The notes under the pieces are model-generated. The model did not search any database. It had not been told where the DNA came from and saw only the letters and a list, made by a program, of their open reading frames with translations. From positions 1 through 64,000 of the forward strand of contig CAIUTB010000143.1 of the NCBI GenBank assembly GCA_903901975.1: 64,000 bases of DNA, written 5' to 3'. The stretch is from an uncultured Bacteroidales bacterium (lineage in GTDB: Bacteria; Bacteroidota; Bacteroidia; Bacteroidales; Paludibacteraceae). The position numbers and the translations under genes were made by a program. Positions 35,720-46,793 of this stretch are shown here, in pieces (position 1 is the stretch's first letter; every line of letters starts with the position of its first letter).

Positions 35720-37966
35720 TTAGTTCCTGACAATTCGGACTGTATTATTAGCTATTCTGGCAATGTAAATACCTTTATCCAGTGTGCTAATATCTAAGGT
35801 ATTTATTCCCGATTTCAAATTTTCACTGAACAATAACTTACCCAGCATCGTGTACATTTTTAGGGTTGTTGGATCATTTACTTCAATGTTCAGATTATTA
35901 GCCACCGGATTTGGAAATAGGGCTATCACATTATTTTCAATATTGTTTATGCCGGTTTTGTCTAATTGACTTTTGAGTGTTAAGTCGGCATTGGAGGCTG
36001 AGTTGTTATCAGTCAACACCACAACCGACTCGGCTAATGCTGAAGCTGTTTCAGCAACCACTTTGTAAGTATCCAGGGCAATGTTATCAAAAACATAATA
36101 TCCGGCCATATCCGTAACTGTCCATGCTACTGGTTCATTGTTATTGTTGAATAAAACAACCGGCGTGTTCATGGCAATATTAGTTATCAAATTCAAGCTT
36201 GTTGAACCACTTTTAGCAAACACACTGTCCTGCAAGCTATAAGTTTCGAAGAAAATATTGCCTGAAATTTTGCCGTTTCCTTTGGCTCTAACAAATTCTC
36301 TCAAATTTATGACAATGTTTTTATTACTATCATTCAGGCTAAAATAATCAGCATTTTTAAATTTTAATTTATTAATATAGAATGTTGGCAGGAAATTTTT
36401 GTAAACTGAAAAATCAGGAATGGCATATATCGTGTATTCAGCTTTTGCTAAATTTGCAAATTTGAATAAACCGGCATTAATTGCCCCTGATGCAACCGCC
36501 TTGTAATAGCCTTTCCTGAATAATACGGCATAACCTGATTTTATCAATTCGGTTCCGGCAAGTACAGAACCAGTTAATGTAGAGGTATTATCGGCATTTA
36601 ATACTTCATAACAAGTAGCAACTCCAACAGTATAACAAAGAACGGACATGGAGGAATCATTCTTTGTCAGATATCCGCCAAACCGGACTTTATCACCCGC
36701 TTTTAATTCAATTGGATAAATTGCAGTGCCCGTTGAAACAGTCCCTGAACCAGTCGTACTACCTGTGACGACAATATTGTTTTGAATTGTATACAACTGA
36801 CGAATCATACTCATACCCGGATATGATATATCTTCAATGTATAATTGACCTGAACAGCCATCAATTCCTTCAACAACAACGCCGGTTTTATTCATTAAGC
36901 AGGGTGATGGAGGAGTTTGAACAATTTCGTAACAATTCACTAAATTATAACAGGGTGTGGTGAAACATTGAATATTCACTCCGTTGAATTTAACAGTAGT
37001 GCCAATCGACAGTTGTATATTATTCAGTGCATAAATATCACCCGTTGAGCTGTCTTTTATAAGTGTAGAACCATCTTTTAGTGCAAAAACAGTTCCTAAT
37101 TTATCCTTATTGCAATCGGCTGGTTCTACTTCGTAACAGTTTGCTACTCCAATGGTACGACATTGGATATTTACATTAGAATCATTCTTTATCAAATATC
37201 CACCAAAGCGGACTTTAGCGCCCACGGTCAATGAAGTTGAAACTGTTCCATTGCTGTTAATAATGTTTCCTTTGATAACATATAACTGGCGGGATGAACT
37301 AATCGGAGATAGTTCCTGAATGAATAGTTGATCGGCACAACCGGCAATTCCGGAAACAACAAAACCAATTTTGTCCAACACACAGGGTGGAGGCGGAGTT
37401 TGTATAATTTCGTAACAAATCACCAAATTGTAACATGGTGTCGTCTTGCAAATTGCTTTGGCTCCACTGAATTTTATCATTGTGCCTATCGCCAGTTTTA
37501 AATTATAAATGGCATAAATGTCAGCACTTAGACTGTCTTTAATAAGCGTAGAACTATCTTTTACTGCAACCACAACACCAAGTTTATCCATAACACAAGC
37601 CGAATGGATTGTTTTAAGTAAAATACCATTGTAATAAATCTGAGTGTTTTCTTTAAGTAAACTTAAGTTCAATCTTGCCGTAAAATAGCTAACCATAGCG
37701 GTGCAAATCCGGTTCGAATTGTCGATTTTTCGCTTGCTGACATAGATTCGGCCATCAATTACAGAGTCTTTTATAAGCACAAAATCGGGACAACCATCGT
37801 TTGAGATGTAACTATAAGCTACATATACGCTATCCTTTGGAGAAGGATTTGCCGGATAAACAGCAATTGTATCCTGCACAGGTGGCATAATCTGACCATT
37901 AGCTGTTGTGAAGCTAAATATACAGACTAAAAAAAACAGCAGGATATTGAAAATACGTTTTTTCAT
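35720..37966 (-). CDS. T9SS type A sorting domain surface protein with duplicated modules
   Basis: 748 aa, signal peptide (1 to about 25). Two module types alternate: A (about 127-195 and 288-356, each with DKLG..V, STLIKDS, TTPCYNLV, QTPP.PC) and B (about 198-279 and 359-454, each with RQLY, VRFGGYL, CYEV), giving A-B-A-B. Each module has paired Cys residues. Residues about 460-660 hold two carboxypeptidase regulatory-like/CNA-B-like beta domains (GYYKAVASG..AGLFKFANL; MAGYYVFDNIAL). The C-terminus (about 670-748; LFPNPVANNLNIEV .. GIYIARI) is a T9SS type A sorting domain. Probably exported and anchored at the cell surface. Function unknown. Confidence 0.82.
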   Translation of the reverse strand: MKKRIFNILLFFLVCIFSFTTANGQIMPPVQDTIAVYPANPSPKDSVYVAYSYISNDGCPDFVLIKDSVIDGRIYVSKRKIDNSNRICTAMVSYFTARLNLSLLKENTQIYYNGILLKTIHSACVMDKLGVVVAVKDSSTLIKDSLSADIYAIYNLKLAIGTMIKFSGAKAICKTTPCYNLVICYEIIQTPPPPCVLDKIGFVVSGIAGCADQLFIQELSPISSSRQLYVIKGNIINSNGTVSTSLTVGAKVRFGGYLIKNDSNVNIQCRTIGVANCYEVEPADCNKDKLGTVFALKDGSTLIKDSSTGDIYALNNIQLSIGTTVKFNGVNIQCFTTPCYNLVNCYEIVQTPPSPCLMNKTGVVVEGIDGCSGQLYIEDISYPGMSMIRQLYTIQNNIVVTGSTTGSGTVSTGTAIYPIELKAGDKVRFGGYLTKNDSSMSVLCYTVGVATCYEVLNADNTSTLTGSVLAGTELIKSGYAVLFRKGYYKAVASGAINAGLFKFANLAKAEYTIYAIPDFSVYKNFLPTFYINKLKFKNADYFSLNDSNKNIVINLREFVRAKGNGKISGNIFFETYSLQDSVFAKSGSTSLNLITNIAMNTPVVLFNNNNEPVAWTVTDMAGYYVFDNIALDTYKVVAETASALAESVVVLTDNNSASNADLTLKSQLDKTGINNIENNVIALFPNPVANNLNIEVNDPTTLKMYTMLGKLLFSENLKSGINTLDISTLDKGIYIARIANNTVRIVRN

Positions 37967-38108: not shown

Positions 38109-38154
38109 TTTTAATATATATTTTCGTTGTCATTGTGTTAAATATTATTACTTC

Positions 38155-38300
38155 CCAATTGTTATTTTGCTGATTTGATGAATATTATTCATGTCAGAAT
38201 AATCGTACTGATACAAACCGACCATGGGCAATTATCAGTTCGTAGGTCGAATGGCCGCAGCGATTACCCGCATGAGTGGGTAAGATAAGCAAGGCTATGA
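38155..38300 (-). pseudogene. Decayed 3' fragment of an LVIVD-repeat lipoprotein gene
   Basis: Bases 38167-38220 are identical over 54 bp to 39647-39700, the 3' coding end of the intact LVIVD gene. Bases 38229-38278 match 39930-39979 at 41 of 50 positions. About 229 bp between these blocks in the intact gene is missing here, and the rest of the gene is absent. It carries no usable frame. Read as a remnant of a former tandem copy, on the same strand as the intact gene. Confidence 0.8.
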
Positions 38301-38387
38301 GCAACAGCACAGTAAAATACCCTACTTCGATAAAATAACTTCCATCCTCGTTATTCTATATTAGTTTCTTAAAAGCCAATAGTTCAT

Positions 38388-38417
38388 AAAAAAGATTGGA
38401 TTTTTTCAATCTTTTTT
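38388..38417 (-). terminator. Terminator of the sigma-factor-led cassette
   Basis: Stem AAAAAAGATTG (38388-38398) with CAATCTTTTTT (38407-38417), 8-nt loop, 1 bp after the last stop codon of the cassette on the minus strand. The T6 run serves as tail in that direction. Confidence 0.75.
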
Positions 38418-38418
38418 A

Positions 38419-39243
38419 TTATGAAATTATTGTTGGGTAACTGCCAACAATTTGTCCGGTTATCACATCAACCAATAATACATAAAAGACATCGGGTACG
38501 TAGATATTCCAAACCACATGCAATTCAATTTTATCATTTTGTTGAAGTGGATAAATCATTTTTTTAGATTGAGCACTCTTCAGATTACTTTCTGTTATTT
38601 TAAATGAAGATAATTCACCGCCAATGGAATAATGAGTAACTATTTGATTTAAAAGCTGGTTTTTTGCTGATATAGAATCAAATTTGTCAACTATTGGAAT
38701 ATTAATTTGAGGAAACCAATTTCCAATACACCATGTCACTTTTCCATTGATAAGCATGATTGTTAAGCCTGTGCTATTGACTTCCAATCCTTTGTAAATT
38801 TGACTAGAGATTACGAAATGCCACGAAATGCTTCCATCAGATACTTTAGAAGAATCAAGACTTATAAAATTAATTTCAGAGGGGTTTTTTATTCCGGCGT
38901 ATTTTGAATTTAAAGTAATAAAGGACTTTACAACCTGATATGCACTATCTTTGCTTAGATTCGGTAACTTTGATGGCCATATTCCTGAAGGATTAAAATC
39001 TGAAAAGCCAAAAAAGCCAAATGCATTCAGAGAAGAGTTTAGATTTGGGTTGTCAATCGTAAATTGAGATTGCAAATTGTTGAGCATATTCATGTCTAAC
39101 TTTGAATATGTTGTCGGGTAATCGTCATTTATATAGGGACTATTTTGTTCCAAATCGCAGTTTGTAAACAAAAACGAACAAAAAAACAAATTAGCAATTA
39201 ATATAATGTGCCTGATTTTCAAAGTCACTGAATTATTGTCCAT
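38419..39243 (-). CDS. Lipoprotein resembling a metalloprotease propeptide (FTP/PepSY-like)
   Basis: 274 aa. A hydrophobic stretch ends in a lipobox-like FTNC (Cys29), so it is probably a lipoprotein. The middle (about 95-190) reads like the fungalysin/thermolysin propeptide (FTP) motif: helix DSAYQVVKSFI, ISWHFVISSQIYKGLEVNSTG, then LMINGKVTW-type strand and a Pro-rich IPI. The end (about 225-274; ELHVVWNIYV .. VLLVDVITGQIVG) resembles PepSY. No peptidase domain follows, unlike true pro-enzymes, so it may be a free-standing inhibitor or chaperone. The fold call is from pattern recognition only. Overlaps the previous gene by 11 nt. Last gene of the cassette. Confidence 0.6.
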   Translation of the reverse strand: MDNNSVTLKIRHIILIANLFFCSFLFTNCDLEQNSPYINDDYPTTYSKLDMNMLNNLQSQFTIDNPNLNSSLNAFGFFGFSDFNPSGIWPSKLPNLSKDSAYQVVKSFITLNSKYAGIKNPSEINFISLDSSKVSDGSISWHFVISSQIYKGLEVNSTGLTIMLINGKVTWCIGNWFPQINIPIVDKFDSISAKNQLLNQIVTHYSIGGELSSFKITESNLKSAQSKKMIYPLQQNDKIELHVVWNIYVPDVFYVLLVDVITGQIVGSYPTIIS

Positions 39244-39622
39244 TTTGTGTGATGGTTAGATGTCCGAAATAATCTCCAGACTCCAGTGTAATCAACAGTT
39301 GTCTCTGAGTTTTGTAATTATTTTTTGTGGCTTTAACAAACAGGGTATTTTTATCTCTGCGTTCAATCCTGAAGCTGTCTAGTTCAACTTTAAACATATC
39401 ATTAAACCAATTCCTTTGTAAACTGTCCCGAATATACTCATTATTTATTGATACCTCGGCCATCCACCACGAGCTACCTCCGGTCTTTATGATAATCGAA
39501 TCTCCGTTTGATTTAAAACTTGCTGATTTTGTGGAAAGCTGAATGTTATCAAACCACAATCCTATTGGAAATTCACAGGAACTAAGAAATACTACAAATA
39601 TTATAATAATTGATTTCCTCAT
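39233..39622 (-). CDS. Small BACON-like lipoprotein
   Basis: 129 aa. Lipobox LSSC (Cys16) after a short signal peptide, then an all-beta domain ending in YFGHLTITQNGQ, the usual end of a BACON (Bacteroidetes-associated carbohydrate-binding, Ig-like) domain. Pattern features: STKSASFKSNGDSIIIKT and SSWWMAEVSINN. Binding of glycans or mucin is known for some BACON relatives, but here it is inference. It follows the LVIVD gene by 5 nt and overlaps the next gene. Confidence 0.6.
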   Translation of the reverse strand: MRKSIIIIFVVFLSSCEFPIGLWFDNIQLSTKSASFKSNGDSIIIKTGGSSWWMAEVSINNEYIRDSLQRNWFNDMFKVELDSFRIERRDKNTLFVKATKNNYKTQRQLLITLESGDYFGHLTITQNGQ

Positions 39623-39627
39623 AATCT

Positions 39628-40905
39628 TTATTTGACAATTGCCAACTTGCTGATTTGATGAATATTATTCATGTCAGAATAATCGTACTGATACAAACCG
39701 TCATCGGCTATCATCATCAACGTATTGTTGAAAGGAATGACATCAAATCCATTCATACAGCTGTATTGGGCCAGCTTGTTTGCCAAGAGAGTTTCTGGTG
39801 CCGTAATTTTGTATATTTTGAGCCCATCGTCACACAAAAATAGTTTCCCTGCATCAATTCCCAGTCCTTTGGGTTCTGTCATACCGTATGAAACCAGCAT
39901 TTTTGGACTCTTCACATCTTTTACGTCAACAATCATTAGTTCGTTGGTCGACTGCCCGCAGCGGTTACCCGAATGAATAGTTACATAAGCCAGATCGTTA
40001 TCCACCACCACCGGATCACATCCAAAAGCATGTGAGATAGCCGATTGATATACAGGTTTTAGTGGGTCAACAACTGAATATATAAGCATTCCTGTGCTGG
40101 TGCCAAAATATAAATTGCTTTTATTACTAAAAATTGTTTCCACATTCCAACCTACATACATATTATCGGTTGCTTTTTGAGGCTTCTCACCCGTTAAGTC
40201 AAATATATTCAAATTGTTGTTGATAACGGTATATAATTTATTATCGTAAATAGTAAAACTTGCCATCGAACCGTTGATACCGGTTGTGGCGGTTCCACTA
40301 TTTGTTGATGTAGGAGTTGCAAGGTCATACATCATTTCTGGCCAACCGCCTTTGAGCCAACCACCCCGATACTGACTTACCGCTTCAGTTTTTTCTTTAA
40401 GCTCCCATCCTACTATAATCCCGTTACTTCCACCTGAGTATGTTGTGTTATAATCTATTGAATATTGATTTGGAATGGTTGGCAATGCAGTCGTGAAAAT
40501 CGAATCAAGTCGTCCTTTTAGCAAAGGATTCGATGGATCGCTCACGTCGAACCACACTAAATCAATATATGAATCGGCATACAGCAAACCATTTCGTATA
40601 GCCAGATCGGCATTACCCAATAATTCAATAAATCCAACCGATTGAGGATTAGCCGGATCAGTATTGTTGATAATGTGAATACCTTTCTGTGGTTCAGAGA
40701 TGTACAGATAATTATTATAAAAGCACATTTTACCAATTCCACCAAGAGTGTGAAGTGTTTTACTAACCTTTACCGAGTTACGGAATGTTTCAGTAGCCAT
40801 AAATATAGGTTCATTGACTTTGTAAGTCACCATTTCAGTAACTATATCATTACATGCTGTAAGGGCAAGCAATGAAATGCTGAAAAGAAAAAATAGTTTT
40901 TTCAT
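39628..40905 (-). CDS. LVIVD-repeat beta-propeller lipoprotein
   Basis: 425 aa. Signal peptide with lipobox LTAC (Cys18). The body consists of LVIVD-type propeller blades: YISEPQKGIHIINNTDPANP, LVWFDVSDPSNPLLKG, NELMIVDVKDVKSPKML and LFLCDDGLKIYKI. The fold is a beta-propeller for binding, with unknown ligand; no catalytic residues are evident. The 3' end of this gene is duplicated as a decayed fragment at 38155-38300. Fifth gene of the sigma-led cassette, 22 nt after the serpin gene. Confidence 0.83.
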   Translation of the reverse strand: MKKLFFLFSISLLALTACNDIVTEMVTYKVNEPIFMATETFRNSVKVSKTLHTLGGIGKMCFYNNYLYISEPQKGIHIINNTDPANPQSVGFIELLGNADLAIRNGLLYADSYIDLVWFDVSDPSNPLLKGRLDSIFTTALPTIPNQYSIDYNTTYSGGSNGIIVGWELKEKTEAVSQYRGGWLKGGWPEMMYDLATPTSTNSGTATTGINGSMASFTIYDNKLYTVINNNLNIFDLTGEKPQKATDNMYVGWNVETIFSNKSNLYFGTSTGMLIYSVVDPLKPVYQSAISHAFGCDPVVVDNDLAYVTIHSGNRCGQSTNELMIVDVKDVKSPKMLVSYGMTEPKGLGIDAGKLFLCDDGLKIYKITAPETLLANKLAQYSCMNGFDVIPFNNTLMMIADDGLYQYDYSDMNNIHQISKLAIVK

Positions 40906-40927
40906 ATTGTACGTGTATTTAAGTTGT

Positions 40928-42166
40928 TTAGAATTTATCTACTGTTCCCATTTTACCAACAAACAGAATCACACCTGTACTTTTTTCGCGGATTACAAAC
41001 AGGAAGGGTTTATTGACTTTGAATACCGGGGTTGGAGGATCAACAGGCATGGATGTAAGTCCTACACCAATAATAGTAACAGCAGCAGCTTCAGTTCCTT
41101 CTTCAGTAACTTCAATGTTGGTAATATGTTGAATTGATGATATTAATAACTGGATATCAGCTATTTTTGAAAAATCTGCCCTATCACTAAAAGCCAGATT
41201 CATGCCCATGTTTTGCAACGGATTGATTAAACTGAGATTATTTTTGTTGTTGAAGCGGGGAAGGTAAACTTCCACCTTTGTTGTTGGCATGTAACCGATA
41301 ATAGAATTCCATTTGTCAACAGTCAGGTAATTCAATACATCAGCTGTTGTTTTTCCATCGCTTGGCAAAATCACTGTCATGCTGAAGGCTTTATTGCCAT
41401 AAGGCATATCAAGGTACTGAGCATACGAATCGGCATTGTACGAGAAGGTGTCTTTCTGATACATCATGTTTACTTTCACAGAATTACCCAATTCATTTGT
41501 GAAGTTGGCTTCATTTGTATTGACTTTAGCAAATTTCTTGCGCCAGATACCTTTGAAATACACAGCATTAACAAGATACATAACAATATCATTTGGGATT
41601 TTGGTCAAAACCTGTGGAATCATTTTATTGGTTTTCTTTGAACACCAGTTATTTATCGTATCCACTGCCCATGCTTGTGTAAAATCGAGTTCTTTGACAT
41701 AAGCTCCGAAATAATCGGTATTCACTTTCAAAAAGTCCGGTTTTACAACAAATCCGGTGCGATACCACAACGAATTGGCAATAGAGAGTTTGGTGGTTGG
41801 GTCAATGCCTGGCAGTGTTGATTGCATAATTTTGTAATAATCATTTATATCGGCAACCGACATGCCGCTCATTTTCAATGCGGTTTCCATTTCGGTTTTG
41901 GTATCGCCATTAGCACCATTCCAGGCCATTCCCAAAGCGATACTTACGCTTAATGGCGATACGAAAACATTGGTTTGGTCGGAGCTGGCAATGGTATTTT
42001 TCAGCAAATCGAATGCAAAGCTATTATCCTGACTTACCCGCTTTTGTTGTGAAGCTGAAAGTGCGATAGGCGTTGCATCTTTCGGAATCTGATAAATCGG
42101 ATCGTTTTGTCCGGTGCAGGCCGGAATCAATAAGACGATGATTGATAATTTGAATAACATTTTCAT
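40928..42166 (-). CDS. Serpin family protease inhibitor, lipoprotein
   Basis: 412 aa. Lipobox IPAC (Cys17) anchors it in the envelope. The serpin core is complete: NVFVSPLSVSIALGMAWNGA near the N-terminus, YLVNAVYFKGIW, the hinge EEGTEAAAVT of the reactive centre loop (about 360), and the C-terminal NKPFLFVIREKSTG. The hinge has small residues at P12-P9, as in inhibitory serpins. Counted from the hinge, P1 would be Thr with P1' Ser in GLTSMP, but the loop before VNKPF is about 5 residues longer than in alpha-1-antitrypsin, so the scissile bond is uncertain. It traps serine or cysteine proteases by suicide inhibition. Fourth gene of the cassette. Confidence 0.9.
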   Translation of the reverse strand: MKMLFKLSIIVLLIPACTGQNDPIYQIPKDATPIALSASQQKRVSQDNSFAFDLLKNTIASSDQTNVFVSPLSVSIALGMAWNGANGDTKTEMETALKMSGMSVADINDYYKIMQSTLPGIDPTTKLSIANSLWYRTGFVVKPDFLKVNTDYFGAYVKELDFTQAWAVDTINNWCSKKTNKMIPQVLTKIPNDIVMYLVNAVYFKGIWRKKFAKVNTNEANFTNELGNSVKVNMMYQKDTFSYNADSYAQYLDMPYGNKAFSMTVILPSDGKTTADVLNYLTVDKWNSIIGYMPTTKVEVYLPRFNNKNNLSLINPLQNMGMNLAFSDRADFSKIADIQLLISSIQHITNIEVTEEGTEAAAVTIIGVGLTSMPVDPPTPVFKVNKPFLFVIREKSTGVILFVGKMGTVDKF

Positions 42167-42193
42167 GGCTTTTATAATTTAATGTGTTTGAAT

Positions 42194-42655
42194 TTAATAT
42201 GCTTGCTGACAGGTATTTTTGTCTAAAATCTGTTTGCATTTGTTTATGTAATCTTTAATAATGGTCGGGCTGTTTCCGTATTCATAGCTTACTTTGTGTG
42301 TTTCGCCATTGTTCAAAATTAGTTCGAGCCACTCGGCACCACCGTCGGCACAGTCGGGACAACCAATTACTGCCGGAAGTGCAAAAAAAGAACTTGTGGC
42401 AATATTTGTTCTGATAGAGTCCCAGGTAGTTGACTTAGTTCTTTCGGAAAAATCTTTTTGTGGAAGTATGTTCCCGTTAGAAATGCAAGAATACTTCACG
42501 GAATCGACAGTAATTGACACTTGATGTTTGCAATAACCTATACATTCACCAAACGAAGTTCCGTAGTTTAGCTGAATTATACGTTTATCCAGCTCATTGG
42601 TACAAGCCATACTCGATATCAGGATCAAAAATATCAGTGTATTTTTAGTTTTCAT
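42194..42655 (-). CDS. Cys-rich hypothetical lipoprotein
   Basis: 153 aa. Lipobox SMAC (Cys18), then FGECIGYCKHQVSI, YSCISNG, GCPDCADGGAEWLELIL, YINKCKQILDKNTC. Eight further Cys residues could form several disulfides outside the cytoplasm. Resembles small proteins annotated DUF6438-like in Bacteroidota, but I do not claim the family. Overlaps the barrel gene by 4 nt (ATGA) and precedes the serpin gene by 27 nt, so it is translationally coupled in the cassette. Function unknown; a disulfide-rich inhibitor or sensor are options. Confidence 0.7.
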   Translation of the reverse strand: MKTKNTLIFLILISSMACTNELDKRIIQLNYGTSFGECIGYCKHQVSITVDSVKYSCISNGNILPQKDFSERTKSTTWDSIRTNIATSSFFALPAVIGCPDCADGGAEWLELILNNGETHKVSYEYGNSPTIIKDYINKCKQILDKNTCQQAY

Positions 42656-43899
42656 TTTTTTGCTGAATTTAAATCGTATCGTACTCCAAGTTCCAAACTG
42701 AACACATCCGGCTGTTTGGAACGAATGCTAACCGGCTGATCGTTATTGAAATAGTACGAGAAATTGGGTTCAAAGAAAATGCCCAGATTGGGTCTGATAT
42801 TATAACTCACACCTGCTGCCGAATTTAAAGAAAGTTGAATTCCGGTAATACTAGTTACGGCTGTTGTAACCATAGTTTGAAAACTGCTGGTTTGATTTTG
42901 TTGATAAACTGAGCGTAGCCCTTTCTCAACTGTTCCACCTCCCGAAACATACACTTCCCATTGCTTTTTATTCCACAATTTTACAATTAATTTCAGCGGA
43001 ATACCCAGATAATGAAGACCTAATCGGGCATCGGTGGTTACAAATCCGCTGTTCGAAAAATCGGTTTGAAGATAGGTGTAAACCAATCCGGTTTCAAGAC
43101 TCAGATTTTTAGAGAAATTGTCCCTTACCTTCAATCCTACTGAAAGTGGCAGGCTGTAATGAACACTTGAGAAATTTTCAGGGGCCATAATGGCTGTATA
43201 AGTGGTCCCTGTTTTCACAATGTCATTCGAAAGTGTTGCCGGAGAAAGATTGTCCAACCCGGAAGAAGTATTGCTCCCCGAGCCCAACGAAGCGGCTAAA
43301 AGCCATCTGTTTTTAAATTTCTTCTTGATTTCTGGTTTACTTTCAGAATTTATTGTCCAAATGTCAGTCCGGTTACTGGCAATTTGTTTTTTTGAAATCG
43401 TATCGGATTTTAGCAATGAAATATCAGCAATAGCTGTATCTTTAACTTCAGCTTTCTCAGCAAGTTTTTGACTATTTAAACTTGTATCCGCTGATTGACT
43501 GACAAAATTTAGGGTGTTCGGCTGGATTGTATTTGTGTAATTATCAACTGAGGCTGAATATTTTATTTTCCCTTTTTGTGTTCTGTAGGTTGATTTTGCA
43601 GGTTTGTTAATTTCCTGAGCCACTGGTTTTGCCGGTGCAAATTGAGTTCGTTTCGATTTTGAGATTAAAGTTGTGTTATCTGAAACCGGGCGAAATGTAA
43701 ACAGCAAGGCAATAACAGCCGCGGAACTTATTGGAATCCACAACCAAAGAGGCATATGGCGGCGTTTCTTCTTTTCAACTCTAACTTGAATAGCGTTCCA
43801 CAAATCAGTATCAAGCGTTAACCCGTGATTTTCCAGTTTGCTCTTAACCTTCTCACTGAAAGCATCCAATTCGTTTTTGTTTTTACTGTCGATATTCAT
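42652..43899 (-). CDS. Membrane-anchored protein with C-terminal beta-barrel-like domain (possible anti-sigma)
   Basis: 415 aa. Residues 1-48 are hydrophilic helices (ENHGLTLDTDLWNAIQVRVE) with a basic KKKRRH end. A single membrane helix follows at about 52-70 (LWLWIPISSAAVIALLFTF), then a polar linker to about 190, and from about 210 a PorT-like barrel (SLPLSVGLKVRDNF, LEPNFSYYFN-type strands, ending in LELGVRYDL). This arrangement recurs beside ECF sigma genes in Bacteroidota. The cytoplasmic head plus helix could hold the sigma factor, with the envelope part as sensor. That role is inference. 42 nt after the sigma gene. Confidence 0.72.
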   Translation of the reverse strand: MNIDSKNKNELDAFSEKVKSKLENHGLTLDTDLWNAIQVRVEKKKRRHMPLWLWIPISSAAVIALLFTFRPVSDNTTLISKSKRTQFAPAKPVAQEINKPAKSTYRTQKGKIKYSASVDNYTNTIQPNTLNFVSQSADTSLNSQKLAEKAEVKDTAIADISLLKSDTISKKQIASNRTDIWTINSESKPEIKKKFKNRWLLAASLGSGSNTSSGLDNLSPATLSNDIVKTGTTYTAIMAPENFSSVHYSLPLSVGLKVRDNFSKNLSLETGLVYTYLQTDFSNSGFVTTDARLGLHYLGIPLKLIVKLWNKKQWEVYVSGGGTVEKGLRSVYQQNQTSSFQTMVTTAVTSITGIQLSLNSAAGVSYNIRPNLGIFFEPNFSYYFNNDQPVSIRSKQPDVFSLELGVRYDLNSAKK

Positions 43900-43941
43900 C
43901 TTTTTGAAACTAACTATTTTATTACTGCCAACTGCTACTGC

Positions 43942-44496
43942 CTACTTTCCTAATACCCTGACTTTTTCCTGCAAAATCTTCCTCGCTCTCATAAACTGAC
44001 TTCGGGATGTATTTTCACTAATATTGAGCATTTCAGCAATTTCTGCATGGCTGTAACCTTCAAGTGCATATAGGTTAAAAACTGTTCGATATCCATTTGG
44101 CAAATTGCTTACACAGTTCATTAAGTCATCTGATGAGATTTTGTCAAGTACCGAAACATCTTCATTTTCAATCAAATAGTCCACATCATCCAGCGAGGAA
44201 CTTTCCAATAATGCTTTATTCTGTCGGAGGTATTCGAGAGCCGTTGTAACAAAAATTCGCCTTATCCAACCTGCAAATGAACCGATTTCAGAAAATGTAT
44301 CCGCTTTTGTAAAGATTTTAATGAAACCATCCTGCAGCAAATCCCGGGCAGTTTCACGGTCGCTCACATACCGGACGCATACACTGAACATAGCCGATGC
44401 GTATAGCTCATAGACCTGTTTTTGTGCCCAGGTTTCGCCTTTTTTGCATCCGGTAATCAGTTTTTGTTCGTCTGGATTTGCTGCTTTAATTTCCAT
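43942..44496 (-). CDS. ECF-type RNA polymerase sigma factor
   Basis: 184 aa, sigma-70 group 4. Region 2 (about 20-90; VSDRETARDLLQDGFIKIF, then GSFAGWIRRI), region 4 (about 125-180; LPNGYRTVFNLYALEGYSHA, MLNISENTSRSQFMRARKIL). No region 1.1 or 3. It should direct core RNA polymerase to a small set of promoters, probably including its own cassette. First gene of the seven-gene unit; upstream, on the minus strand, a TAATTTTG (44581-44574) could be a -7 box of the housekeeping type. The likely regulator is the next gene, a membrane-anchored protein. Confidence 0.92.
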   Translation of the reverse strand: MEIKAANPDEQKLITGCKKGETWAQKQVYELYASAMFSVCVRYVSDRETARDLLQDGFIKIFTKADTFSEIGSFAGWIRRIFVTTALEYLRQNKALLESSSLDDVDYLIENEDVSVLDKISSDDLMNCVSNLPNGYRTVFNLYALEGYSHAEIAEMLNISENTSRSQFMRARKILQEKVRVLGK

Positions 44497-44616
44497 ACTT
44501 TAACTTATAGATGAAATGTTCATCCGTTTCGTTGCTTTGGTTGAAAAAGAAATTTGATATTTAACGTAAAATGCAAAATTATGAATTTTATGGCAGAGTT
44601 ATGCATGAAATAAAAA

Positions 44617-44687: not shown

Positions 44688-46793
44688 TTATTTCTCCCCT
44701 TTAGGGGTCGGGGGTTTGAGCCATTTATCCAACCATTCATAAAACGTTCGTTGCCACAAAATTCCGTTTTGTGGTTTCAATACCCAATGATTTTCATCCG
44801 GGAAAATCAGCATTTCAGCCGGAACTCCACGCAACACCGCTGCGTTGAATGCCGCCATACCCTGCGAAGCCAGAATGCGATAATCTTTTTCACCGTGAAT
44901 AACCAAAATCGGTGTATCCCATTTGTCTACGAATAAGTGTGGTGAATTGGCATACGATTTTTGAGCTATGGCATTGGCTTTATCCCAGTATGGACCACCC
45001 AAATCCCAATTTACAAACCACATTTCTTCTGTTTCCAGGTATTGTTGAGGCAGGTTGAACATGCCATCGTGAGCCAGAAATGCTTTGAAGCGTTTTTGGT
45101 GATGACCAGCCAGCCAGTACACCGAAAATCCACCGTAACTTGCACCCACACAGCCCAGTTTGTCCTTGTTTACATACGGTTCTTTTGCCAATGCATCGAT
45201 GGCCGAGAAATAATCGAGCATATTTTGTCCACCATAATCGCCACTGATTTGTTCCAACCATTCCATTCCGAAACTTGGCAATCCGCGCCTGTTTGGTGCA
45301 ACGACGATATAGCCATTCGCCGCCATTAATTGCAAATTCCAGCGATACGACCAAAACTGACTAACAGTAGATTGCGGTCCGCCTTCACAGAAAAGTAATG
45401 TCGGGTATTTTTTTGTTTTGTCGAATTTAGGCGGATAAATCACCCAGGTAAGCATTTGTTTGTGGTCGGTGGTTTCAATCCATCGTTCTTCCACTTTACC
45501 CATTTTCAGTTTAGCCAGAATATCTTTATTTTCAAATGAAAGTTCAGTTTCTGTGCCGGTTTTCGGGTCGATGGAGTATATCTCGTCCGGTTTACTCATC
45601 GAATGTTTTACTCCGATAAGTTTAGCTTTTGCTTCGGCCACATAGGAATAATCGTGAATACCTTTGGTTATTTGAGTGATTTTTTTGTCAGCAATATCAG
45701 CACGATAAATATCAGTTACAGCATGCCAGCAGCTTACAAAAAGAATCGATTTGCTATCGGCAGTCCAGGTTAGTCCTGTTGAATTTTGGTCGAAACCAAC
45801 TGACAGGTCAATTTTCTCACCGCTTTGAAGATTTATAATGAATAAACGGTTTTTGTCCGCTTCATACCCATCGCGTTCCATACTTTCCCAAGCCAGCCAT
45901 TTACCGTCGGGCGAGAAAGTCGGATTTTGGTCGTATCCCATCATGCCTTCGGTTTTGTTCTCCGTTTTTCCGGTCTCTAAATTATAAAAGTAAATGTCCG
46001 AATTCGTGGAAAGTGCATACTCTTTTCCTGTTTTTTTGCGGCAAGTGTAAGCTATCGTTTTTCCGTCGGCACTCCAGGCTAATTGTTCAATTCCACCCCA
46101 GGGTTTCATTGGACTCTCATAAGGTTCGCCTTTCAAAATATCTTTTTCGTTTTCAATTTTTCCGTCATTAAAATCGGCTAAAAACGGATGAGGAACAGTT
46201 TGCACCCATTCATCCCAATGCTTGTACATTAGGTCATTCACTATCAATCCACTTGCTTTAGGCAGGTCGGGATATTTATCCACAGTACGTTCACCGTATT
46301 TTACATCAGTAACGAACAACAATTTTGTTTCGTCGGGTGAGAAAACGAAATCGTTGATTTCGCCATCGCGTTTCGTGATTTGATTGCGGTCTGTGCCATC
46401 AGCTTTCATAGTCCAGAGCTGCATTGAGCCTGTTTCTGAAGACAAGAAAGCGATATGTTCACCGTCTTTCATCCACTTGGCAGCAGCCTCACGGGTGGCG
46501 GTTTTGGTAATTTGTTTTTTGTCCGAACCGTCCGCATTCATTACGAAAATCTCCGAATTCCCTTTATTTTCGGGAATGCTGTAGTACGAAACGCTATACA
46601 GAACCTGTGTGCCGTCGGGCGATACCTGTGTGCCGGCTACCCGTCCAAACGACCATAAAACTTCGGGCGTCATACGTCCATTTTCAATTTTCGGTTTTTG
46701 TTTACCAATAATAGTGCTGTCCTCCTTCGGACTGCACGATCCTGCTGCAACGGCCATTGCCATAAGCGTAATTTTAATTAAATATTTGTTCAT
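44688..46793 (-). CDS. S9 family (prolyl oligopeptidase-type) peptidase, DPP5-like lipoprotein
   Basis: 701 aa. Signal peptide and lipobox AGSC (Cys20). The first two thirds form a beta-propeller with WD/PD40-type blades (EAAAKWMKDGEHIAFLSSE, FSPDETKLLF). The last third is an alpha/beta-hydrolase with catalytic Ser in GASYGG, Asp in GEKDYR and His in DENHW. Similar to periplasmic dipeptidyl peptidase 5 of Porphyromonas, which removes dipeptides from peptides and supports amino-acid catabolism. The last residues KPPTPKGEK are encoded by the end of the CCCCTTTAGGGG repeat (44694-44720). Own promoter and terminator. Confidence 0.9.
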   Translation of the reverse strand: MNKYLIKITLMAMAVAAGSCSPKEDSTIIGKQKPKIENGRMTPEVLWSFGRVAGTQVSPDGTQVLYSVSYYSIPENKGNSEIFVMNADGSDKKQITKTATREAAAKWMKDGEHIAFLSSETGSMQLWTMKADGTDRNQITKRDGEINDFVFSPDETKLLFVTDVKYGERTVDKYPDLPKASGLIVNDLMYKHWDEWVQTVPHPFLADFNDGKIENEKDILKGEPYESPMKPWGGIEQLAWSADGKTIAYTCRKKTGKEYALSTNSDIYFYNLETGKTENKTEGMMGYDQNPTFSPDGKWLAWESMERDGYEADKNRLFIINLQSGEKIDLSVGFDQNSTGLTWTADSKSILFVSCWHAVTDIYRADIADKKITQITKGIHDYSYVAEAKAKLIGVKHSMSKPDEIYSIDPKTGTETELSFENKDILAKLKMGKVEERWIETTDHKQMLTWVIYPPKFDKTKKYPTLLFCEGGPQSTVSQFWSYRWNLQLMAANGYIVVAPNRRGLPSFGMEWLEQISGDYGGQNMLDYFSAIDALAKEPYVNKDKLGCVGASYGGFSVYWLAGHHQKRFKAFLAHDGMFNLPQQYLETEEMWFVNWDLGGPYWDKANAIAQKSYANSPHLFVDKWDTPILVIHGEKDYRILASQGMAAFNAAVLRGVPAEMLIFPDENHWVLKPQNGILWQRTFYEWLDKWLKPPTPKGEK
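44694..44716. repeat. Solo end of the CCCCTTTAGGGG element inside a coding 3' end
   Basis: CTCCCCTTTAGGGGTCGGGG matches the right end of the 115-bp elements at 12285-12305 and 31363-31385. Here only one end is present and it is translated (minus strand) into the C-terminal PPTPKGE of the S9 peptidase. Confidence 0.7.

Follow-up and report, generated by a model that had tools for sequence, protein, structure and literature searches.

Dma proteins, in which an anti-sigma end, a transmembrane helix, a long disordered tether and a barrel follow one another, are described in passages of PMC13088901, and a similar envelope-spanning design is reported for EcfO-Reo of Phocaeicola in parts of PMC9308784 and PMC13114119. 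Sections of the same papers report that EcfO-Reo is switched on by antibacterial toxins as well as in the mouse gut and activates three nigD genes (PMC9308784, PMC13114119), that NigD lipoproteins belong to the EcfO regulon and are a Dma1 target (PMC13114119, PMC13088901), and that the outputs of Dma and EcfO include NigD lipoproteins, vesicle formation, a longer O-antigen and changes in genes for polysaccharide use (PMC9308784, PMC13088901, PMC13114119). Miropin is presented in part of PMC7296668 as an inhibitor of host proteases, and that part holds no link between miropin and a sigma factor. Here, we describe a seven-gene unit in which an extracytoplasmic function (ECF) sigma factor gene and a Dma-like gene precede a gene for a miropin-like serpin. 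It lies in a 64,000-nucleotide stretch of DNA from an uncultured bacterium of the Paludibacteraceae, order Bacteroidales (assembly GCA_903901975.1, contig CAIUTB010000143.1, positions 1 to 64,000), referred to as the window.

We consider it probable that the unit belongs to an outer-membrane-stress regulon of Das/Dma (EcfO-Reo) type that deploys the serpin. The 415-aa Dma-like protein would hold the sigma factor at the inner membrane, its loose tether reaching to its own outer-membrane barrel, and a disturbance of the outer membrane felt by barrel or tether would free the sigma factor. Once freed, it would transcribe its own operon from a GCAAC-N17-CATC promoter, together with some unlinked genes that have the same promoter. 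The main effector would be the serpin lipoprotein, put on or outside the cell, where it would trap proteases, and it would be made together with the propeller lipoprotein and with small lipoproteins that can be exchanged for others. To our knowledge, little has been established about what switches bacterial serpins on.

The unit runs on the minus strand from 44496 down to 38419 and comprises the sigma gene and six further genes, with intergenic spacings, sigma gene first, of 42, -4, 27, 22, 5 and -11 nt. It had been proposed from a sequence-only reading of the window, whose calls of sigma factor, barrel protein, serpin and LVIVD protein all find Pfam matches above cut-off. The features are as follows.

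44509..44535, minus strand: ECF-type promoter GCAAC-N17-CATCT, ending 12 nt before the sigma start codon
43942..44496, minus strand: ECF sigma factor, 184 aa (PF08281 2.4e-17, PF04542 4.7e-13)
42652..43899, minus strand: Dma-like anti-sigma/barrel protein, 415 aa (PF13568 2.2e-9, residues 228-384)
42194..42655, minus strand: Cys-rich lipoprotein (CYS), 153 aa, optional cargo (eight-row family alignment)
40928..42166, minus strand: serpin lipoprotein, 412 aa, miropin-like (PF00079 1.2e-106)
39628..40905, minus strand: LVIVD beta-propeller lipoprotein, 425 aa, third core gene (PF08309 6.6e-6)
39233..39622, minus strand: BACON-like lipoprotein, 129 aa, optional cargo (PF13004 14 bits, cut-off 25)
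38419..39243, minus strand: FTP/PepSY propeptide-like lipoprotein, 274 aa, optional cargo, without catalytic domain (NF038113 1.9e-5)
about 38375..38420, minus strand: A+T-rich 13-bp hairpin and T run, terminator-like (z -3.67)

The single terminator noted earlier is borne out by this hairpin, which is more stable than 200 of 200 shuffles (0/200 equally stable) and is absent from the output of a terminator scan demanding G-C pairs. Lipoboxes precede a cysteine in the last five proteins, again as first noted and as judged by eye from the translations, FTNC of the FTP-like protein being the weakest of the five. The sigma promoter (44509-44535), the membrane-spanning layout of the barrel protein and a remnant of a second LVIVD gene (38148-38293, described below) are additions to that first account.

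The regulatory head of the locus fits the described Dma / EcfO-Reo kind in its predicted features, and the earlier remark that no named system was known does not stand for this part. The sigma protein matches TIGR02937 (7e-28, above cut-off) and, under the cut-off, TIGR02985 (91 bits, cut-off 126.4); judged by its barrel partner, it is a putative Das/EcfO-like factor. The 415-aa protein has the predicted layout of a Dma protein, with an N-terminal domain, one transmembrane helix, a variable tether and a C-terminal barrel. About 50 conserved N-terminal residues are followed by one hydrophobic helix near 50-70 (hydropathy peak 2.01 at residue 51), and in the family alignment both ends are conserved and the tether between them does not align among relatives. 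Its gene adjoins the ECF sigma gene, with the 42 nt gap given above, and is the single match to the barrel-protein (Dma-like) profile in its own genome, a draft of 3.97 Mb in 170 contigs.

The regions upstream of sigma genes that have a barrel gene next to them share the consensus GCAAC-N17-CATC[AT]. We compared 66 distinct regions. They come from loci in which the sigma gene adjoins a barrel gene and has 150 nt or more of sequence ahead of it (exact duplicates removed; a contig present in both collections with different ends could be counted twice). With a spacer of 17, 57 of the 66 match a relaxed pattern and 50 a strict one; no other spacer from 8 to 30 is matched by more than 2, and control regions 700-960 nt downstream of the sigma start give 0/66 at spacer 17. 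The window holds one match only, the one before the sigma gene, where 0.39 would be expected by chance. The proposal that the unit is inducible is likely on two counts, the conserved promoter and the fused anti-sigma layout. Further copies of the promoter stand within cassettes, before the serpin or the CYS gene, in loci L082, L079, L084 and L075. In most loci compared the promoter ends about 9-28 nt before the sigma start codon, and a very short leader is therefore expected on the sigma message.

Inhibitory serpins have a mobile hinge with small residues ahead of the reactive loop. The window protein has a full-length serpin domain (PF00079, 357.5 bits, cut-off 27, residues 47-406), its best PDB sequence match is miropin (5ncs, 5e-106), and its hinge, EEGTEAAAVT, is the same as in miropin and of the inhibitory type, so that assignment to the inhibitory serpins is supported at the level of sequence. 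From the alignment its P1-P1' residues are predicted to be Thr-Ser; among the 50 close relatives whose hinge could be read, 40 share this pair, and three more had no readable hinge.

Serpins go with this kind of sigma factor both in cis and in trans. Close serpins were defined by a phmmer E below 1e-90 to the window serpin, and the motif was sought from 150 nt upstream to 60 nt inside each gene. The per-gene count is confined to genes that code for 100 aa or more and have 200 nt or more of sequence ahead of them. One of the 16 stand-alone close serpins falls out under this rule, and two of the 16 come second in tandem pairs. Within the family, 10 of 15 stand-alone close serpins, lying outside any cassette, have the sigma promoter, as against 1 of 438 unclassified other genes (Fisher, about 4e-16, the kinship of genomes being uncorrected); the sigma genes themselves have it in 24 of 28 cases, CYS genes in 1 of 9, and genes given the label of the neighbouring protein sorted by the type IX secretion system (T9SS) in 0 of 8. 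Among the genomes examined, 13 have a stand-alone close serpin and 11 of these a Dma-like gene, and the promoter stands at a serpin in 9/11 genomes with a Dma-like gene and 0/2 without. The Dma-like pair of the same 11 genomes is preceded by the promoter in 10, the eleventh contig being too short to tell.

Of 393 genomes across the order, 167 have serpins. From 29 genomes, the window's own not among them, the best serpin locus was taken, and in 9 of these 29 loci a gene for a sigma factor of the same family (E no worse than 4e-46) lies about 1.5 kb away or closer. A tenth gains an adjacent sigma gene in a longer stretch, so that the rate is 10/29, in eight families by the kinship column; the 10/20 found among 20 larger regions, which were chosen adjacent-first, is not a rate. 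Locus L333, where the sigma match is weak (3e-19) and lies four genes away from the serpin, was left out of the count. The order is serpin-sigma-barrel, or the serpin is divergent from sigma-barrel, and in four loci of the divergent type (L318, L321, L323, L330) the promoter stands before each of the two genes. A barrel partner is recognised by profile in 9 of the 10 sigma-serpin loci, and Pfam confirms the barrel in 6 of 8 tested; in L324 the sigma partner was recognised as a barrel protein neither by profile nor by Pfam. Nine of 24 scorable order-level serpins (five of the 29 loci have no recognised serpin frame) have the promoter within 350 nt upstream, and 0/24 have it inside the gene. The serpin-sigma link is thus more than neighbourhood and recurs in cis and in trans in several families, which strengthens the central idea of the sequence-only reading.

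Locus L330 (G423:C17:18000-36000) has a divergent sigma-barrel pair and two serpins, with the promoter on both sides, followed by a lipoprotein resembling NigD (NigD_C 20.0 bits, cut-off 22.6). L052 (G027:C38:100000-119000), from a related genus, holds seven serpin genes in an array, which are distant from the serpin of the cassette; a single chance-like match to the motif lies 142 nt ahead of one of these genes, and by the upstream-motif rule none lies within 150 nt.

Several observations weigh against a serpin-deploying regulon. No exact motif is found at 5 of the 15 stand-alone close serpins or at 15 of the 24 order-level serpins, and the order-level sample is made up of the most similar serpins. 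Distant serpins of the same regions have the promoter in 0 of 23 cases, so the link is not general to serpins. The reverse strand of the order-level upstream windows matches in 3/24, all three facing a divergent sigma gene. Within cassettes, the serpin has a promoter of its own in 2/37 cases, the LVIVD gene in 0/30, the barrel gene in 0/29, and the BACON-like and FTP-like genes in 0/3 each; this scarcity of internal promoters fits an operon and does not prove one. The sigma, barrel and LVIVD genes are directly joined in 40 of the 80 best loci (of 520) kept from an LVIVD scan, one of the 40, L169, having a serpin after LVIVD. Finally, none of the five intergenic promoter matches in the window's own genome stands before a NigD-like gene.

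Those five belong to 29 matches to the relaxed motif in the own genome (8 in the control), of which the other 24 lie inside genes. One of the five is the cassette itself, and the best-placed unlinked site is 20 nt upstream of a gene for an SRCP lipoprotein (L198:1061-1480, contig 118), a protein that has a relative (4e-21) among the accessory genes which another genus carries in its cassette; the SRCP family is found inside the cassettes of L039 and L040. Another site stands 44 nt before a gene for a 112-aa lipoprotein, and two further sites have no convincing nearby gene. A stricter motif gives 30 sites in eight congeners (2 in the control). Intergenic sites there precede the cassette sigma gene and NigD-like lipoproteins (Pfam NigD_N, NigD_C) in four genomes, as well as several small lipoproteins, most of them without a Pfam family; others stand before genes of different kinds or before no gene. 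There are NigD-like genes in cis as well: they follow LVIVD in L132 and, by a match to the NigD_N-like model, adjoin the second sigma-barrel pair of L135. NigD would be an output held in common with EcfO and Dma1. Assignment of SRCP to the I36 metalloprotease inhibitors (PF03995) was rejected: one cassette member scores 20.4 against 21.1 bits, and neither another cassette member nor the own-genome protein matches. In L135:8185-16113, from Parabacteroides sp. PM6-13, two sigma-barrel pairs lie near each other, one with LVIVD and one with the NigD_N-like lipoproteins, and one type is possibly derived from the other by duplication.

Targets of the NigD kind bring in an alternative, a general envelope-repair or vesiculation regulon in which the serpin would restrain the cell's own secreted or periplasmic proteases. 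According to passages of the sources, Dma1 promotes vesicle formation by way of NigD1 (PMC13088901), a response to outer-membrane stress has been proposed for EcfO (PMC13114119), and the potempins of Tannerella, small lipoprotein inhibitors, adjoin the KLIKK proteases that they inhibit (PMC7296668). A peptidase gene likewise lies directly upstream of the sigma gene on the same strand, in the window and in 9 of the 80 LVIVD loci:

44688-46793, minus strand: dipeptidyl-peptidase 5 (Dpp5) gene, directly upstream of sigma (NCBIfam)

In a potempin-protease pair the inhibitor gene lies beside the gene of its target, a role that would be putative for Dpp5. Dpp5 genes have the sigma motif in 0 of 8 cases and do not stand beside most of the 80 cassettes, and the predicted Thr-Ser at P1-P1' is shared with miropin, which part of PMC7296668 describes as acting on host proteases. 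A repair or vesiculation regulon of this kind is unlikely in our judgement, and defence against proteases, resting on the regulation and the serpin hinge, is the best reading of what the predicted regulon would do.

The anti-sigma factor might itself be a sensor of proteases: an external protease would cut its exposed loops or tether, the sigma factor would be freed, and the serpin would trap the protease and thereby close the loop. We hold this to be improbable. If true, it would amount to a bacterial attack-sensing circuit with a serpin as its output and a logic comparable to protease-serpin control in animal immunity. The sigma-serpin link makes protease attack, as one of the signals, directly testable.

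The stress regulon that we prefer has, around its serpin, one set of widely kept genes and one that is readily exchanged. Sigma, barrel protein and LVIVD are kept in 60 of the 80 LVIVD loci, whose genera include Parabacteroides, Proteiniphilum, Tannerella, Dysgonomonas and Petrimonas. Besides the directly joined loci, there are 18 in which a serpin, alone or along with other genes, separates barrel from LVIVD, and 2 in which a different insert does so; 10 have barrel and LVIVD with no visible sigma gene and 10 an incomplete or other arrangement, several of the non-core loci lying at contig ends. The serpin comes after LVIVD in two loci, L166 and L169. In Paludibacter and its kin the cargo varies at three points: in the gaps that separate the serpin from barrel and from LVIVD, and past LVIVD. 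CYS is present in part of the cassettes only, a BACON-like gene follows LVIVD in two other loci, L107 and L117, and the FTP-like protein is found in 4 of 250 family genomes including the own (the fourth a weak match, E 7e-4). In two congeners the FTP-like gene directly follows the serpin, and their cassette has no LVIVD gene. The expected conservation of gene order thus holds for a wide core of sigma-barrel-LVIVD and fails for a fixed set of seven genes, the small lipoproteins being exchangeable cargo. Frequent exchange of lipoproteins would suit parts that meet changing enemies, their roles being putative.

One such exchange seems to have left a trace next to the unit, where two further features lie.

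38148..38293, minus strand: leftover 3' end of a second LVIVD gene, with an internal deletion (87% and 80% identity to the intact gene in its two pieces)
35720..37966, minus strand: 748-aa T9SS-sorted modular protein, neighbour (PF18962 5.9e-10)

A single alignment (74%) joins the stretch 38237-37972 to L108, where it spans the 3' end of LVIVD and the intergenic stretch that follows; a T9SS protein gene comes next there. Because the broken LVIVD end aligns to L108 and a T9SS protein is the neighbour in relatives, the BACON-like/FTP-like pair is most likely a recent insertion between LVIVD and its old neighbour that left the old LVIVD end behind.

Such turnover, the different cargo of close relatives and the directly joined core in half of the 80 loci would suit an explanation in which sigma-Dma-LVIVD alone is the conserved unit, serpin and lipoproteins being passengers on a strong promoter with no common function. 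However, serpins outside the cassette carry the sigma promoter, and in other families serpins adjoin sigma-barrel pairs without a recognised LVIVD gene, so that we regard mere passengers as very improbable. That the genes are chance neighbours with no regulon, which seven same-strand genes alone would not exclude, is barely credible in view of the conservation counts for sigma-barrel-LVIVD and serpin and of the strict promoter spacing with its 0/66 controls at spacer 17; chance grouping may apply to the BACON-like and FTP-like genes, with three loci each.

The LVIVD protein has one Pfam repeat (25.8 bits, cut-off 20.2) and, together with its predicted fold, qualifies as an LVIVD propeller. The AlphaFold model (pLDDT 84) agrees with the propeller call made earlier: its Foldseek matches are propellers, the top ones with a template-modelling (TM) score of about 0.35 and BamB, BtuG2 and PorZ ranking further down with about 0.42-0.48. 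The matches point to propellers generally and to no specific partner. Its gene persists in many loci that lack a serpin, and the LVIVD protein may for this reason belong to the sensing core.

The small lipoproteins are harder to place. The 153-aa CYS protein matches no Pfam family above cut-off (14.3 bits, cut-off 15, to a 13-residue repeat) and gives one chance-level match in a PDB sequence search. Its predicted fold is alpha/beta (pLDDT 79), nearest to eukaryotic Magoh at a TM score of about 0.5 (AlphaFold, Foldseek); no inhibitor is among the 50 Foldseek matches listed, and we do not claim CYS as a protease inhibitor. The BACON-like call falls short in Pfam, where two members score 14 and 16.1 bits against 25 for PF13004 and a third has no match; what stands is the recurrence of homologues after LVIVD in L107 and L117.

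For the 274-aa FTP-like protein there is no Pfam match and no match in a PDB sequence search, and Pfam FTP (PF07504) is absent from the window protein, two relatives and the rest of the own genome. Its residues 100-272 align to the N-terminal region of the M36 model NF038113 (E 1.9e-5, far below the model cut-off), as does one other member (1.5e-5), a third giving no match. Residues 106-272, in a three-row query alignment, match a propeptide profile built from 13 N-terminal regions of order proteins carrying the Pfam FTP domain (hhalign probability 95.6, E 1.2e-8). The FTP/PepSY-like call holds as homology to M4/M36-type propeptides in the wider sense and not as a Pfam FTP domain. Of the two protease inhibitors first proposed, the serpin makes a good case; the FTP-like protein, which is rare, is akin to peptidase propeptides by homology and would be a putative inhibitor. 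An M36 peptidase of the own genome as its partner was considered and rejected: all 61 listed matches to the M36 model fall in the C-terminal part of that model (722-869), mostly the T9SS tail.

The 748-aa T9SS protein was rejected as a member of the unit: because its gene lies past the hairpin and has no sigma motif upstream, it is probably a transcript of its own. A promoter typical of Bacteroidetes, TTTG-N-TATCTTTG, can be read upstream of it. The protein consists of repeated Cys-containing modules ending CYEV or CYEI, and its homologues adjoin LVIVD or serpin in six relatives, with about 37-48% identity over the longest pieces; those homologues vary in length.

The sigma-serpin link in eight further families suggests that Bacteroidales may deploy a weapon against proteases as part of an outer-membrane alarm, and the defined promoter lets regulon candidates be listed in other genomes. 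The word 'serpin' does not occur in the text of PMC13088901 on Dma or of PMC9308784 on EcfO-Reo, nor in passages of PMC13114119, where the term was not specifically searched. A literature search among open-licence papers found, in the matches listed, no coupling of Dma/EcfO-type regulators to serpins, and titles and abstract openings on the LVIVD repeat held nothing on such a system. The regulatory kind is thus known from Dma and EcfO-Reo, and its coupling to serpins with this promoter is the new element.

The window unit shares with Dma/Das of Bacteroides thetaiotaomicron, where the sigma factor is of group ECF21, a sigma gene next to a gene for an anti-sigma/transmembrane/tether/barrel partner, the own operon as main target (predicted for the window unit), and NigD-like lipoproteins among the targets, putative in relatives of the locus. 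It differs in that its operon adds the LVIVD propeller, serpin and small lipoproteins; the neighbourhood of Dma2, BT_1555-1557, contains other families according to a portion of PMC13088901. EcfO-Reo of Phocaeicola vulgatus and Bacteroides fragilis matches what is predicted for the window unit and its relatives in its envelope-spanning anti-sigma protein, its induction by stress and its nigD regulon. The potempins are, like the cassette lipoproteins, small Bacteroidales lipoproteins tied to proteolysis, but they adjoin KLIKK proteases and no KLIKK protease is seen beside the cassette lipoproteins, the likeness being one of description. The FTP-PepSY propeptides of M4/M36 peptidases share a profile match with the 274-aa protein, which is a free-standing lipoprotein without a catalytic domain. 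Miropin of Tannerella forsythia, the closest solved structure to the window serpin, has the same hinge and Thr-Ser at the aligned P1-P1'; with the residues up to P1-P1' reading VKTS in miropin and GLTS in the window, the two may differ in specificity.

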